Shown here piece by piece: positions 6,378 through 32,364 of a stretch of 64,000 bases of DNA (positions are counted from its first letter, which is position 1; each line of letters opens with the position of its first letter). The stretch spans positions 1,262,501 through 1,326,500 of the forward strand of contig NZ_AP024452.1 in NCBI RefSeq assembly GCF_016865485.1. The letters are read 5' to 3'. This DNA comes from Luteitalea sp. TBR-22 (GTDB lineage Bacteria; Acidobacteriota; Vicinamibacteria; Vicinamibacterales; Vicinamibacteraceae). A program made the translations under genes and the position numbers. The notes beneath the pieces are model-generated. The model searched no databases. It was not told where the DNA came from and saw only the letters and a program-made list of their open reading frames with translations.

Positions 6378-8150
6378 ATGACTCGACTGCTCGGCTGCCT
6401 GCTCCTGACGGGGAGCGTGATGCTGCTGGCCTGCGGGCGCGATCATCGCCCGACCGCAGTCCCGCAGGCCCCCGAGGCGGCCAGTGGTTGGACCGACAAG
6501 CCGGGCTGGTCGGCGTCGTCGTGGATGGTGGCCGCCGCCAACCCGCTCGCGGTCGATGCGGGGACCGAGATGCTCGAGGCCGGCGGGTCGGCGCTCGACG
6601 CGGCGATTGCCGTGCAGATGGTGCTCACCCTCGTCGAGCCGCAGTCGAGTGGCATCGGCGGTGGGGCGTTCCTCGTGTACTGGGACGGCGCCAGGGTGAC
6701 CGCCCTCGACGGCCGCGAGACCGCACCGGCCGCCGCATCGCCCGAGCTCTTCGTGCGCGACGGCGTGCCGATGCGCACCATCGACGCGATCGTCGGCGGA
6801 CGTTCCGTGGGCGCCCCAGGCGTCGTGCGCATGCTGGCGCTCGCGCACGCGCGACACGGGCGACTGCCATGGGCACGGCTCTTCGGGCCCGCGATCCGGC
6901 TCTGTGACGAGGGCTTCGCGATCAGCCCGCGCCTGGCCGGCCTCCTGTCGCGGGAGGCGCACCTGTCGAAGGACCCCGAGGCGCGCGCGTATTTCTACGA
7001 GCCCGACGGCCGACCGAAGGCGGCCGGCACCCGTCTGCGCAACCCGGCCCTGGCCGCCGTGCTCCGGTCGATTGCCGCCAACGGCCCGGATGCGTTCTAC
7101 ACGGGCGACATCGCGGCGGACATCGTCACGAAGGTACGCTCGCATCCCACCAACCCCGGCGTGCTGAGCGCCGCCGACCTGGCCGCGTACCAGCCGGTCG
7201 AGCGGGAGCCGCTCTGTTTCACGTACCGGACGTCGCGCATCTGCGGCTTCCCGCCGCCGGGCTCCGGCACCCTCGCGCTCGGCCAGATCTTCGGCATCCT
7301 CGAGTCGCACGACATGCGGGCGCTCGCTCCCAGCCGAGGCGCCGACGGCCGCTGGACGATGTCGGCAGAAGCCGTCCACCTGTACACGGAAGCTGCACGG
7401 TTGGCGTTCGCCGATCGCGAGGCGTACGTCGGTGATCCGGCGTTCGTGCCCGTACCGGTGTCGGCCCTGCTCGACCCGCAGTACCTCGAGGGCCGTCGCG
7501 CGGCGATCGGCGCGCGGTCGATGGGGCGCGCCACCGCCGGCGTACCGCCCGGCCTGACGAGGGCGGCCACCGCCGGGGTGCCGCTCGAACGCCCGTCCAC
7601 CTCGCACATCTCGATCGTGGACGGCTTCGGGCACGCGCTGGCCATGACCACCACCGTCGAGGACGGCTTCGGCTCCCGCCAGTTCGTGCGCGGCTTCATC
7701 CTCAACAACCAGCTGACCGACTTCTCGCTCGCGCCGACCGACGCCGCAGGCGCGCCGGTTGCCAACCGTGTCGAGGCGGGCAAGCGGCCGCGGTCGTCGA
7801 TGACGCCGCTGCTCGTCTTCGATCGTCGGAGCGGCGCGTTGCGCATGACCCTGGGGTCGCCGGGCGGGAGCGCGATCATCAACTACGTCGGCAAGGTCCT
7901 GCTCGCGACGCTCGACTGGGGGCTCGACGTGCAGCAGGCGATTGCGCTACCCAACGTGGGCAGCCGCAATGGTCCCACCGAACTCGAGGCCGGCCGGGTC
8001 GACCCGGCACTCGGCCCGGCGCTCGAGGCCCGCGGGCACGAGGTGCGCCTGCTCGACCAGACCTCCGGCCTGCAGGCGATCGAGCGGACCGCGACCGGCT
8101 GGTTCGGCGGCGCCGACCCGCGCCGCGAGGGGATCGCGCGGGGGAAGTGA
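6378..8150 (+). CDS. ggt: Gamma-glutamyltransferase, lipoprotein form
   Basis: A 590-residue glutathione hydrolase/gamma-glutamyltransferase of the Ntn-hydrolase superfamily. The N-terminus is a lipoprotein signal (lipobox LLAC, residues 16-19), so it is probably membrane-anchored in the periplasm. Family motifs include 'GGSALDAAIAVQMVLTLVEP', 'SSGIGGGAFLV' and 'DGRETAP'. Self-cleavage is expected before Thr408 in 'PSTSHISIVD', which would become the N-terminal nucleophile of the small subunit; the usual TTH is TSH here with the first Thr retained. 'GSPGGSAIINYV' near the C-terminus is also typical. The enzyme breaks gamma-glutamyl bonds of glutathione and related peptides. A heptamer array begins at its stop codon. 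Confidence 0.9.
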   Translation: MTRLLGCLLLTGSVMLLACGRDHRPTAVPQAPEAASGWTDKPGWSASSWMVAAANPLAVDAGTEMLEAGGSALDAAIAVQMVLTLVEPQSSGIGGGAFLVYWDGARVTALDGRETAPAAASPELFVRDGVPMRTIDAIVGGRSVGAPGVVRMLALAHARHGRLPWARLFGPAIRLCDEGFAISPRLAGLLSREAHLSKDPEARAYFYEPDGRPKAAGTRLRNPALAAVLRSIAANGPDAFYTGDIAADIVTKVRSHPTNPGVLSAADLAAYQPVEREPLCFTYRTSRICGFPPPGSGTLALGQIFGILESHDMRALAPSRGADGRWTMSAEAVHLYTEAARLAFADREAYVGDPAFVPVPVSALLDPQYLEGRRAAIGARSMGRATAGVPPGLTRAATAGVPLERPSTSHISIVDGFGHALAMTTTVEDGFGSRQFVRGFILNNQLTDFSLAPTDAAGAPVANRVEAGKRPRSSMTPLLVFDRRSGALRMTLGSPGGSAIINYVGKVLLATLDWGLDVQQAIALPNVGSRNGPTELEAGRVDPALGPALEARGHEVRLLDQTSGLQAIERTATGWFGGADPRREGIARGK

Positions 8151-27302: not shown

Positions 27303-28307
27303 ATGGCGATTTTCGACATCCCGATCAGTTGGGGCGAGGTCGGCAAGCGGACGATGAAGGAGACCATCGCCGACGACTGCCTCGGGCTGGCGGCCCAGCT
27401 CTCCTATTACGTGTTCCTCGCGCTGTTCCCGGCGATCCTGTTCCTGCTCGCCCTCGGGAGCTACTTCCCCCTGCAGGACCTGTCGGGGCAGATCGTGCGC
27501 GTGCTGCGTCCGATCGCGTCACCCGACGTGATCGCCATCATCTCGGAGCAGATCCAGCGCATCGCCAACTCGGAGGACGGCGGCCTGCTGACCTTCGGCG
27601 TGCTCACCGCCCTGTGGAGCAGCTCGGCCGCGATGGTGGCCGTGACGAGCGCGCTGAACGCGGCGTACGACATCGAGGAAGGCCGCCCCTGGTGGAAGGT
27701 GCGGCTCGTCGCCGTGGGCTTGACCCTGGCCCTGGCGGTCTTCTTCCTGCTGTCGTTCACCATCGTCCTGGCCGGTCCGGCGATCGCGTCGTACCTCGAG
27801 CAGACGCTGCACCTCGGTTCGACTGTCAGCACGGCATGGCTTGTCGTGCAGTGGCCGGTCGCGTTCCTGCTGGTGTCGACGGCGATTGGCCTGGTGTACT
27901 ACTTCGCCCCGGATGCCGAGCAGGACTGGGTGTGGATCTCGCCCGGCGCGGTGCTCGCCACCGTGCTGTGGCTCACCGCGTCGTACGCCTTCCGCCTGTA
28001 CGTCACCAACTTCTCCGATTACAACGCGACCTACGGGGCCATCGGCGGGGTCATGGTCCTGCTGTTGTGGTTCTACGTGTCGAGCCTGGCCATCCTCGTC
28101 GGTGCGGAGATGAACGCCGAGATCGAGCACGCGTCGCCGCACGGGAAGAACCCGGGCGAGAAGGTTCCAGGGGAGCGGCGGATGATCGGCGCACGGGCCG
28201 CCCGCGCGTGGCGGGCGCGCATGGAAGCTCGTCGGGGAGGCGTGGCCGGCAACGGATCGCCCAAGGACCAGATTGACGGGACCGCCGGCGGTGCGTTTGC
28301 ATCCTAG
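27303..28307 (+). CDS. YihY/BrkB family inner-membrane protein
   Basis: A 334-residue protein with about six membrane segments. The family pattern is clear: 'DDCLGLAAQLSYYVFLALFPAILFL', 'ALWSSSAAMVAVTSALNAAYDIEE', 'WISPGAVLATVLWLTASYAFRLYVTNFSDYNATYGAIGGVMVLLLWFYVSSLAILVGAEMNAEIEH'. The last block is the conserved C-terminal hairpin. Members were once called ribonuclease BN or virulence factor BrkB; the true function is unsettled, and transport or envelope roles are suggested. The tail of about 50 residues after 'HASPHGKNPGEK' is basic and cytoplasmic. Confidence 0.9.
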   Translation: MAIFDIPISWGEVGKRTMKETIADDCLGLAAQLSYYVFLALFPAILFLLALGSYFPLQDLSGQIVRVLRPIASPDVIAIISEQIQRIANSEDGGLLTFGVLTALWSSSAAMVAVTSALNAAYDIEEGRPWWKVRLVAVGLTLALAVFFLLSFTIVLAGPAIASYLEQTLHLGSTVSTAWLVVQWPVAFLLVSTAIGLVYYFAPDAEQDWVWISPGAVLATVLWLTASYAFRLYVTNFSDYNATYGAIGGVMVLLLWFYVSSLAILVGAEMNAEIEHASPHGKNPGEKVPGERRMIGARAARAWRARMEARRGGVAGNGSPKDQIDGTAGGAFAS

Positions 28308-28902: not shown

Positions 28903-29949
28903 ATGGACATGGACGCGGGGGTCGACACGCTCGACCGCTACGCCTTCAACACCACCTTTGCCACCGACTGGGTGCTGGGTCGCAAGCTCGGACTCAATCG
29001 CACCGGTGAGCGCAAGTCGTGGCAGGACAAGATGGTCGCCAGGATGCAGGGGCGGCCGCTCGGGCGTGAGCTTCAGGTGGAGCGCCGGCGAGGCCTCTCA
29101 CCGGAACAGTTCCGCCGCGAGTACTTCCTCACGGGCAAGCCCGTCGTGCTCGAGGGCATCGCGAGCGAGTGGCCGGCCGTAAAGAAGTGGTCGTTCGAGT
29201 ACCTGCTCGAGCGGTGTGGCCAGGACGACATCGACGTCCTCGACGGCCACAACTGGAAGGTGCAGGCCAGGCCCGGCACCGACGTGGTCGAGGCCGCCGA
29301 ACGCGGCATGAAGGTCAAGGACCTGCTCGCCGGGGCGCGGAGCGGCAGCGGCTGGTACGGCTCCTTCATGGAGCTGCTCGACAAGTACGCCGACATGCGC
29401 GACGACATCGACTGGAACTTCGTCCGCGACTACGGCAACACCACGATGCGGCTGCCGTGGCAGCGCAACATCCTCGCGAAGATGTACGTCGGCGGGCCGC
29501 TCACCTCGACGTCGTTCCACTGCGCGCCGGTGATGAACCTGTACCTGCAGGCGTACGGCCGCAAGCGCTGGGTGCTGGTCGCGCCGAAGTTCACGCCGTT
29601 CATGTACCCGAGCCTGTCCAAGGGCCTGAACTGGCAGTCGCGCATCGACTTCCGCAATCCGAACTACGACGAGGCGCCGCTCTATCGCTACGTCGATCGC
29701 TACGAGACTGTGCTCGAGCCCGGCGACGTCCTGTGGAATCCGCCCTGGGTCTGGCACGGCGTGCAGAACCTCACCGAGTCCATCGCGGTGAGCATGTGGT
29801 GGGCCAACGTGACCCGGACGATGTCGAACAACCCCGTGCTCACGCCGCTGGCGTTCTTCGGGCGGCCCAACCCCGTCCTGCTGCAGCTCGGTCTCGAGAA
29901 GGAGCCGACCGAGAAGCGCTCGGCCTTCAGCGTCCACCTGAACAAGTAG
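28903..29949 (+). CDS. Cupin-8/JmjC-like protein with HxA instead of HxD
   Basis: A 348-residue protein. From about residue 65 it follows the cupin-8/JmjC layout: 'EYFLTGKPVVLEGIASEWPAVKKWSFEYL', then 'LAKMYVGGPLTSTSFHCAPVMNLYLQAYGRKRWVLVAP', then 'LEPGDVLWNPPWVWHGVQNL'. Most members are Fe(II)/2-oxoglutarate oxygenases with an HxD...H metal triad. Here the triad reads His206-Cys-Ala208...His285: the carboxylate is replaced by alanine, while the lysine of GRKRW that binds 2-oxoglutarate is kept. HxA/HxG triads are known from Fe/2-oxoglutarate halogenases in other branches of the superfamily; loss of activity is the other explanation. It lacks a signal peptide and stands between a terminator and a small membrane protein gene. 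Confidence 0.75.
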   Translation: MDMDAGVDTLDRYAFNTTFATDWVLGRKLGLNRTGERKSWQDKMVARMQGRPLGRELQVERRRGLSPEQFRREYFLTGKPVVLEGIASEWPAVKKWSFEYLLERCGQDDIDVLDGHNWKVQARPGTDVVEAAERGMKVKDLLAGARSGSGWYGSFMELLDKYADMRDDIDWNFVRDYGNTTMRLPWQRNILAKMYVGGPLTSTSFHCAPVMNLYLQAYGRKRWVLVAPKFTPFMYPSLSKGLNWQSRIDFRNPNYDEAPLYRYVDRYETVLEPGDVLWNPPWVWHGVQNLTESIAVSMWWANVTRTMSNNPVLTPLAFFGRPNPVLLQLGLEKEPTEKRSAFSVHLNK

Positions 29950-30230: not shown

Positions 30231-31271
30231 ATGCCCGGCAGCGACGACGCGCAGGCTCACGACGTCACGATGGCCGTCGGTGGGCGCGAGGTCACCGTGA
30301 CCCATCCGGACAAGGTGTTCTTCCCGGACTCAGGCGTCACCAAGCTGGATCTCGTGCGCTACTACGTCACCGTGGCCGACGCCGCACTCCGTGGGGTCCG
30401 CGGCCGGCCCGTCGTGCTCAAGCGACATCCGGACGGTGTCGGCGGCGAGGCCTTCTTCCAGAAGCGCGCGCCGGCGGGGCGACCGGCCTGGGTGGACACG
30501 GTCACCCTCGCCTTTCCGTCCGGCCGCACGGCCGAGGAGGTCGTGCCGCGCGAGCCGGCGACGCTGGCGTGGATGGCCAACCTCGGGTGTCTCGAACTGC
30601 ATCCGCACCCGGTGCGCGCCGACGATCTCGACCATCCCGACGAACTGCGCGTGGACCTCGACCCGGTGCCGGGCGTGTCGTGGGCGCAGGTGCGCGACGT
30701 GGCAGAGGTGGTACGCGCCTCACTCGGTGATCTCGGCTTGATCGGCTGGCCGAAGACCTCGGGATCCCGTGGCCTCCACGTCTACGTGCGCCTCCATCGG
30801 CGGTGGACGTTCGACCAGGTGCGCCGCGCGGCCCTGGCCATCGCCCGGGATGTCGAGCGTCGGGTGCCTGCACTGGCGACGAGCAAGTGGTGGAAGGAAG
30901 AACGTCACGGCGTGTTCCTGGACTACAACCAGAACGCCAAGGACCGCACCATCGCCGCCGCCTGGTCGGTGCGACCGACGGCCGATGCGCGGGTCTCGAT
31001 GCCGCTCGACTGGAGCGAGGTGCCCGACTGCGACCCGGCGGCCTTCACCATCCTGACCGCGCCGGCGCGCCTGGCCGCCGTCGGCGACCCGCACGCGGCG
31101 ATGGACGAGGCGCCGTGCGCGCTCGATGCGGCGCTCGCCCTGGCCGACCGCGACGAGCGCGAGGGCCTGGGCGACGCGCCCTGGCCGCCGCACTACAAGA
31201 AGCAGCGCAGCGAGCCGCCGCGCGTCGCGCCGTCGCGCCGGCGCAAGGACGTCAGCGGCCGCGGGCAGTGA
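30231..31271 (+). CDS. ligD: LigD-type DNA polymerase/primase, stand-alone
   Basis: A 346-residue archaeo-eukaryotic primase-fold polymerase equivalent to the polymerase domain of LigD. It has 'VTHPDKVFFPDSGVTKLDLVRYY', 'LKRHPDGVGGEAFFQKRAP', the catalytic 'VDLDP', 'TSGSRGLHVYVRL' and 'VFLDYNQNAKDRTIAAAWSVRP'. In bacterial non-homologous end joining this activity fills gaps with ribo- or deoxynucleotides. The usual ligase and phosphoesterase domains are absent; an ATP-dependent ligase is encoded on the opposite strand, overlapping its 3' end by 20 bp. No Ku gene is in the window. The symbol refers to the polymerase domain only. Confidence 0.88.
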   Translation: MPGSDDAQAHDVTMAVGGREVTVTHPDKVFFPDSGVTKLDLVRYYVTVADAALRGVRGRPVVLKRHPDGVGGEAFFQKRAPAGRPAWVDTVTLAFPSGRTAEEVVPREPATLAWMANLGCLELHPHPVRADDLDHPDELRVDLDPVPGVSWAQVRDVAEVVRASLGDLGLIGWPKTSGSRGLHVYVRLHRRWTFDQVRRAALAIARDVERRVPALATSKWWKEERHGVFLDYNQNAKDRTIAAAWSVRPTADARVSMPLDWSEVPDCDPAAFTILTAPARLAAVGDPHAAMDEAPCALDAALALADRDEREGLGDAPWPPHYKKQRSEPPRVAPSRRRKDVSGRGQ

Positions 31272-32331
31272 AGACGCGCGCCAGCTCGTACGGCGTCGTG
31301 ACCTCGAGCTGGTCGTAACGGCACGCCGCGGGCGGCTTGTCGGGCCGCCAGCGACGGAAGGTGGCGGCATGCCGGAAGCGGTCGCCCTGCAGGTGGTCGT
31401 ACGCCACCTCGCACACGCGCTCCGGGCGGAGCGGCTCCCACGACAGGTCCTTGCCGGCGCTCCACCGGCTGCTCGCGCCGGGCATGCGCGACGAGCCGGA
31501 AGCGGCGGTGGCCCAGTGGCGCCACGGATGGTCGTCGAGGGCGCCCACGCGCAGCGGGGCGAGGTCGGCGGCCAGTTGCCGGCGCACGGCCATCGTGAAG
31601 GCCGACGTCACGCCGACGTGCTGCAGCGTGCCTGCCTCGTCGAACAGGCCGAGCAGCAGCGAGCCCACGAGCTCGCCGGGCCCGGCCTTGTGCCAGCGGA
31701 AGCCCGCGACCACGCAGTCGGCAGTCCGCACATGCTTGATCTTGATCATGGTGCGCGCGCCGGCGCTGTAAGGGGCGTCGAGGCGGCGGGCGATCACGCC
31801 GTCCAGGCCTGCGCCTTCGAAGCGGGCCAGCCAGTCCACCGCCGTCGCGTGCTCGTGCGTGTGGGGCGTGAGGTGCAGCGGCGGCACGAAGGTCGCCGCG
31901 AGCCGCTCGAGGCGCGCACGCCGGGTGGAGGTCGGCGCGCTGCGCAGGTCGTCGCCGGCCTCGGCGAGCAGGTCGAAGGCCACGAACGAGGCGGGCGTCT
32001 CGCGCGCCAGGCGCTCGACACGCGAGGCCGCCGGGTGCAGTCGCATCTGGAGCGCGTCGAAGTCCAGGCCCGACGGTGTCGCGATCACGATCTCGCCGTC
32101 GACGACGCAGCCGTCAGGCAGCCCGCGCACGAGTGCGTCGTGCACCTCGGGGAAGTAGCGGTCCAGCGGCTTCAGGTCGCGGCTCTGCAGGAAGACCGTG
32201 CCCTCGTCGCGGAAGGCGATGGCGCGGAAGCCGTCCCACTTCGGCTCGTAGGCCCAGCCGTCTCCGTCGGGAATGGCGGCGGCGACCTTGGCGAGCATCG
32301 GTTCGACGGGCGGCGTCACCTGAGCGGGCAT
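31252..32331 (-). CDS. ATP-dependent DNA ligase (LigC-like)
   Basis: A 359-residue ATP-dependent DNA ligase. The adenylation motif 'YEPKWDGFRA' holds the AMP-accepting Lys31. It is followed by 'VVDGEIV', 'FVAFDLLA', 'GLDGVIARRLDAPYSAG' and 'MIKIKHVRTADCVV', then an OB domain with 'LRPERVCEVAYDHLQGDRFRHAATFRRWRPDK'. It has only the catalytic core, as in LigC-type enzymes. It probably seals nicks or breaks together with the facing polymerase gene, with which it shares 20 bp at the 3' ends. The ATG at 32331 is preferred over a GTG 12 bp upstream. Confidence 0.9.
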   Translation of the reverse strand: MPAQVTPPVEPMLAKVAAAIPDGDGWAYEPKWDGFRAIAFRDEGTVFLQSRDLKPLDRYFPEVHDALVRGLPDGCVVDGEIVIATPSGLDFDALQMRLHPAASRVERLARETPASFVAFDLLAEAGDDLRSAPTSTRRARLERLAATFVPPLHLTPHTHEHATAVDWLARFEGAGLDGVIARRLDAPYSAGARTMIKIKHVRTADCVVAGFRWHKAGPGELVGSLLLGLFDEAGTLQHVGVTSAFTMAVRRQLAADLAPLRVGALDDHPWRHWATAASGSSRMPGASSRWSAGKDLSWEPLRPERVCEVAYDHLQGDRFRHAATFRRWRPDKPPAACRYDQLEVTTPYELARVFTARGR

Positions 32332-32364
32332 GGGGACATGCACGGAAAGGGCCGGGCCTGGTCG

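Follow-up and report, generated by a model that had tools for sequence, protein, structure and literature searches.

On balance, the evidence leans towards the Cupin_8 protein of the soil bacterium Luteitalea sp. TBR-22 being a catalytically competent Fe(II)/2-oxoglutarate (2OG) halogenase within the Cupin_8/JmjC group, related to OocP. Halogenation is the leading reading because the protein belongs to a clade in which the iron-binding Asp is replaced (HxA) and the rest of the site is intact, and because a known halogenase falls inside this clade. The Luteitalea protein is perhaps a distant, stand-alone member of the OocP lineage. Its gene and the residues discussed below are listed in Table 1, with positions in the 64,000-nucleotide stretch of the genome that was analyzed (the window); proteins with the same His-Cys-Ala metal motif are referred to as HCA proteins.

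Table 1. The HCA gene of Luteitalea sp. TBR-22, its domain and its putative active-site residues (positions in the window).
Feature	Position	Strand	Basis
Gene for a Cupin_8/JmjC-fold Fe/2OG enzyme with HCA metal motif, 348 aa	28903..29949	+	ORF, ATG start; Pfam; orthologue
Cupin_8 domain, residues 67-303, double-stranded beta-helix core	29101..29811	+	Pfam PF13621, E 2.1e-36; model
H206-C207-A208 (first iron His, conserved Cys, Ala for iron-binding Asp)	29518..29526	+	ORF, alignments
N212, expected near 2-oxoglutarate	29536..29538	+	alignment to JMJD5; JMJD5 N327 by spacing
K221 (2OG lysine, JMJD5 K336) and W223	29563..29571	+	alignment
H285 (distal iron ligand), V287 and N289, HxVxN	29755..29769	+	alignments

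The metal site and its conservation

The start assigned to the gene is also that of its orthologue in an Acidobacteria MAG (L002), whose product is 74% identical to the Luteitalea protein. Both the profile match and the double-stranded beta-helix fold place the protein in the Cupin_8/JmjC superfamily, and a profile search of its own genome (6.47 Mb, one contig) gave no second Cupin_8 match. The first motif stretch reads SFH206-C207-A208-PVMN212-LYLQAYGR-K221-R-W223 and the distal one WNPPWVWH285-G-V-Q-N289. By spacing, N212 corresponds to JMJD5 N327, which we take to lie close to 2OG. The arginyl hydroxylase JMJD5 (KDM8) is the best match of the protein both as a single sequence (phmmer E 2e-25 for the human enzyme) and in fold, and alignment together with spacing equates H206, A208, K221 and H285 with JMJD5 H321, D323, K336 and H400, the roles of which are given in the partial text of PMC9712658. 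The His and Lys positions are thus the same in the two proteins, but D323 of JMJD5 sits on the metal (PMC9712658, partial text), whereas the Luteitalea protein has Ala there. The HxD/E...H iron triad is therefore incomplete, as the preliminary description had maintained in pointing to Ala208 in place of the iron-binding Asp, with both histidines and the 2OG lysine kept; the JMJD5 alignment bears this out. Taken as a set, HxA, H285 and the 2OG lysine K221 agree with the residue pattern of Fe/2OG halogenases.

The structure model, built from a six-row alignment (mean pLDDT 67.8, pTM 0.73; low confidence outside the core), matched JMJD5 best (Z 24.6, 230 residues, 2.2 A), and PDB entry 8a82 over more of the chain (Z 21.2, 303 residues, 4.2 A, 18% identity). 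An earlier model with a mean pLDDT of 39.6 was set aside as unusable.

Homologues were taken from Acidobacteriota, from Bacteroidota and from plasmid records, and 112 of the 115 rows were distinct. Both His were retained in all of these 112, and the place of the 2OG lysine was occupied by K in 106 and by R in 6 of them. The third motif residue was Ala in all four HCA rows, which come from three phyla (Acidobacteriota, Cyanobacteriota and Bacteroidota). Besides the Luteitalea protein, these are L002 (MAG JADZCN010000031.1, of the same order as the Luteitalea genome and a different family), which keeps the whole metal site, L117, encoded by a Planktothrix agardhii plasmid, and L142, from one Bacteroidota genome (G621). 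H206, C207, A208, N212, K221, W223, H285 and N289 are invariant in the four proteins; N at the N212 position also occurs in 40 of the 108 other rows, and Cys at the Cys207 position in only one (L160, motif HCD). No invariant acid replaces the Asp in the HCA alignment, where the only invariant acids are E56 and D275, the latter adjoining the near-universal Gly274 and being D also in 54 of 111 other rows. L016 (G435), the sole Cupin_8 row outside the HCA group to lack Asp as the third motif residue, reads HWHN, with His in that place followed by Asn.

Scattered loss of the Asp with decay of the site, named in the preliminary description as the outcome that would refute it, was not what we saw: the third motif residue was Asp in 107 of the 108 distinct non-HCA rows, and the HCA proteins formed one clade. 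Random decay of the Asp is rejected, because the HCA motif is conserved over three phyla. Comparison of the Luteitalea gene with that of L002 gave dN 0.197 and dS 0.657 (dN/dS about 0.3, 347 codons), and for the core dN 0.086 and dS 0.38 (dN/dS about 0.22), which points to purifying selection on the HCA gene between these two genomes. A pseudoenzyme, or a non-redox metal- or 2OG-binding protein selected for a non-catalytic role, would account for the missing third iron ligand, and FIH, too, loses its activity upon the Asp-to-Ala change (PMC10947486, partial text). We nevertheless consider it improbable, as the four HCA proteins, from three phyla, have kept both His, Lys221 and Asn212 without exception, as OocP, a member of their clade, is active in vivo (PMC11260071, partial text), and as FIH D201A was crystallized with Fe(II) and 2OG all the same (title of 2ilm). 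The dead enzyme that the preliminary description offered as an alternative is likewise weakened by the dN/dS of about 0.3 and by the invariance across phyla.

Kinship to OocP

The title of PDB entry 8A82 is 'Fe(II)/aKG-dependent halogenase OocPQ', and the Cupin_8 name of chain A suggests that this chain is OocP and not OocQ. In the oocydin polyketide synthase (PKS), OocP acts in trans as the halogenase, with OocQ as an auxiliary protein; chlorination by OocP was absent in a strain without oocQ and oocR and was restored by a plasmid with oocQ and part of oocR (PMC11260071, partial text). An earlier source, as far as its partial text goes, mentions only a cupin-like domain in OocP, makes no assignment, and predicts flavin enzymes for the halogenation (PMC4552970). 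OocP was the sole Cupin_8/JmjC halogenase met in the literature and PDB searched; no other was named in the open-access titles and abstract openings examined for this or in the partial texts of PMC3475032 and PMC12871659. The preliminary description had held that a halogenase in this branch would be new. This is wrong, since OocP, with HxG, precedes it.

OocP from Serratia plymuthica resembles the HCA proteins in belonging to Cupin_8, in having two His and the 2OG Lys but no Asp (HQG), and in the spacing of 15 residues from the motif to the lysine. It also shares with them W223 and HxVxN; W223 is found in the four HCA proteins, in OocP and in 9 of 111 other rows, and N289 in the four, in OocP and in 17 of 111 other rows. 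The two differ in the motif itself, which has Gln and Gly in OocP but Cys and Ala in the Luteitalea protein. As OocP has Gln at the middle position, halogenation as such can do without a Cys there. This bears on a further explanation, in which Cys207 would be a thiolate ligand or a redox group of a new two-His-one-Cys iron centre, as its invariance in the four HCA proteins and its occurrence in only one of 108 other rows might suggest. Such a centre is the least credible of the explanations weighed here: apart from the Gln of OocP, L160 carries the Cys alongside an intact Asp, and the x of HxD, being part of a beta strand, normally faces away from the metal.

A likeness at the position of the lost Asp extends to halogenases outside Cupin_8. 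In SyrB2 (motif HxA) and CytC3, and in the WelO5/BesD/DAH halogenases, the triad Asp is replaced with Ala or Gly as well, but these enzymes are other branches of the 2OG superfamily than Cupin_8, and they were absent among the PDB sequence matches listed for the Luteitalea protein. The DAH halogenase motif is HxG (PMC12346261, partial text).

Searched singly, the two acidobacterial proteins matched JMJD5 better than 8a82 (2e-25 versus 3e-11 for Luteitalea, 5.7e-25 versus 1.2e-8 for L002). L117, in contrast, had 8a82_A as its best PDB match, and L142 placed 8a82 first (E 3.8e-15), with only TYW5 besides it at E <=0.01. When the four HCA proteins were combined into a profile and run against 177,635 PDB sequences, 8a82_A came out best (E 1.4e-30, JMJD5 1.7e-22), whereas a control profile of 7 Asp-type homologues put JMJD5 at the top (225 bits) and 8a82 in place 40 of 42 (42 bits). 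In a search of 72,556 plasmid records at E <=0.01, the Planktothrix HCA protein was the only match of the 8a82 fragment and likewise of L142; the L002 protein retrieved 38 records there at E <=0.05. The identity of any HCA protein to OocP is 27-28% at best.

Trees were built after masking the alignment columns that correspond to residues 205-209. The HCA clade had a support of 99/94 with 3 HCA proteins among 65 rows and of 100/97 with 4 among 93 rows, the bootstrap in the latter being rough according to the tool. With OocP added, the joint clade had an SH-aLRT of 97 in a quick run (5 of 94 rows) and 100/98 with 5 of 75 rows. Quick runs without L142, without L117, without both, and without OocP gave 99, 87, 95 and 96, respectively, and the value remained at 97 when G85, W223, H285, V287 and N289 were masked too; the lowest support, 87 upon the removal of L117, was not starred. 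The branches in these trees are long, and the tool warns that long branches may join L142 and OocP. The 65-row tree omitted L103 (a copy of L003) and L124 (a fragment), the 93- and 94-row trees omitted 22 loci (near-copies and fragments), and the 75-row tree and the leave-out runs omitted 41 loci, including L035, L016, L028 and L040 as long branches. In the 65-, 93- and 94-row trees, in which L016 was present, it fell outside the HCA clade each time. As to the check proposed in the preliminary description, namely whether HxA is conserved as a clade, all four HCA proteins group together with the motif masked and have the rest of the site intact. Both the masked trees and the profile searches point to an ancestor common to the HCA proteins and OocP but not to Asp-type Cupin_8 proteins. 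Judged from these relatives, the loss of the Asp is old.

Gene neighbourhoods and occurrence

The Luteitalea HCA gene is flanked by genes for a LysM-domain protein and a LigD primase-polymerase, and no pathway partner was found among the six window ORFs scanned. The ORF at 27329-28273 of the window had no match and may be a wrong frame. At 30231-32343, the LigD primase-polymerase (+) and an ATP-dependent DNA ligase (-) are encoded by two distinct genes that converge and overlap by about 20 bases. The Luteitalea and L002 neighbourhoods have the HCA gene (with its overlapping frames) alone in common, one further match between them being of 32% (window 6525-8090). As only this gene is common to both, either the HCA gene or its surroundings have moved.

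In L002, the HCA gene is within a run of same-strand genes (L002 3604-12192; L020 6732-9744). The run includes a c-type cytochrome-like gene, which has no Pfam match and resembles di-heme cytochrome c peroxidase at a score under the family cut-off, alpha/beta hydrolase and FAD oxidase genes, and a haem peroxidase gene. Among proteins of solved structure, this peroxidase is closest to fatty-acid alpha-oxidase/alpha-dioxygenase (E 5.5e-92). Next on the contig come genes for an NTE-type patatin and for a CMAS-type methyltransferase. A PF03098 search for a partner gene in the Luteitalea genome gave no match, but control genomes gave none either, so such a gene may yet be present. The HCA gene of P. 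agardhii plasmid p2 lies in an apparent terpenoid cluster (NZ_LR882940.1, 40000-62266) with a prenyltransferase/squalene oxidase-repeat protein, a member of the phytoene/squalene synthase family, four P450 features and three Rieske proteins. Beside L142, no clear partner gene was seen among the ORFs, which were viewed by eye. From two of these four contexts, we would guess that HCA enzymes act on a small lipid or terpenoid. No PKS or ACP gene was found among the scanned neighbours in Luteitalea, L002 and Planktothrix, whereas OocP works in a trans-AT PKS module with OocQ (PMC11260071, partial text). On two sphingomonad plasmids (L155, L158), genes for SapC, an Asp-type Cupin_8 protein and a member of the tryptophan halogenase family stand in a row.

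HCA proteins were encoded by 2 of 193 Vicinamibacteria genomes (10 had a homologue match), and in the sample of the phylum Acidobacteriota, where 9 of 396 genomes matched, by the Luteitalea genome only. In two overlapping samples of Bacteroidota, 51 of 296 and 57 of 335 genomes matched and one, G621, had HCA; the motif readings cover 49 matches in the former sample and 30 loci in the latter, not every listed place. Within the family of G621, HCA was found in 1 of 92 genomes (query L142), and within its order in 1 of 128 (query L117). Cyanobacteriota were sampled through plasmid records alone.

A viral or phage origin of the HCA gene was considered and rejected. An Asp-type alignment used as a query did retrieve 3 viral loci, all HxD. 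No relative was found in phage records with the Luteitalea protein and L117 as queries, or in viral contigs with the Luteitalea protein and A1. A DNA pattern for NPPWxWH occurred at 23 viral loci, 9 of which had the peptide in a frame of >80 aa, and none of these appeared Cupin_8-like by eye.

Halogenation or hydroxylation

If the Luteitalea protein is a halogenase, Fe(II) would be held by H206 and H285, 2OG would be bound at K221 and probably at N212 too, and the place vacated by the Asp (A208) would let chloride or bromide coordinate the iron. With O2 and 2OG, a haloferryl would then form, which would take H from an aliphatic C-H and give the halide back to the carbon radical. The binding of iron and 2OG is suggested by the conserved residues, and the halide step by kinship to OocP. 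The preliminary description had derived halogenation from the Asp replacement. Its reading gains from the inclusion of OocP in the HxA clade, but the loss of the Asp is in itself no proof, as AspH is a hydroxylase with HxG. Moreover, of ten plant 2OG enzymes with an Asp-to-Gly/Ala change only 2 halogenated, with hydroxylation still favoured in both, and the other 8 showed no halogenation, many being insoluble or inactive (PMC12346261, partial text).

The Luteitalea protein might instead be a two-His hydroxylase resembling AspH, with water in the vacated site and a protein or a small molecule as the substrate. AspH, a natural HxG hydroxylase, has an iron site of two His without Asp/Glu and does not halogenate its substrate (PMC10947486 and PMC13168262, partial texts), and FIH retains some activity upon the Asp-to-Gly change (PMC10947486, partial text). 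It also fits such an enzyme that the Luteitalea protein is singly nearest to JMJD5, an arginyl hydroxylase, and that its gene has no visible pathway neighbours. However, in FIH, which has the same fold, activity survives Gly but not Ala (PMC10947486, partial text), so a natural Ala suits a plain hydroxylase less well. The water of AspH is tightly held, and (pseudo)halide seems ill suited to displace it; the loss of D721, four residues before the distal His, destabilizes this water (PMC13168262, partial text). The place of D721 is occupied by Pro, Pro, Pro and Ser in the HCA proteins and by Lys in OocP, and hence the water-holding Asp of AspH has no counterpart in the four HCA proteins as judged by spacing only, although another residue could serve. 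As OocP, in addition, falls within the HCA clade, we regard an AspH-like hydroxylase as rather unlikely, though still as the main rival of the halogenase reading.

Returning to halogenation, a broader proposal is that the HCA clade as a whole consists of stand-alone, carrier-independent JmjC-fold C-H halogenases with lipid or triterpenoid substrates, thinly spread over three phyla, without a PKS module and with HxA rather than HxG. We put it forward tentatively, as a possibility that more probably fails than holds in all its parts. Distant kin of OocP in other phyla and contexts would suggest that halogenation arose a single time in this fold and was then retained; the HCA clade would supply candidate stand-alone halogenases. 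Since FIH and JMJD5, for which there are studies of the corresponding Asp, have this fold too, the HCA proteins also let one ask what besides the loss of this Asp makes a halogenase, with W223 and N289 as candidates.
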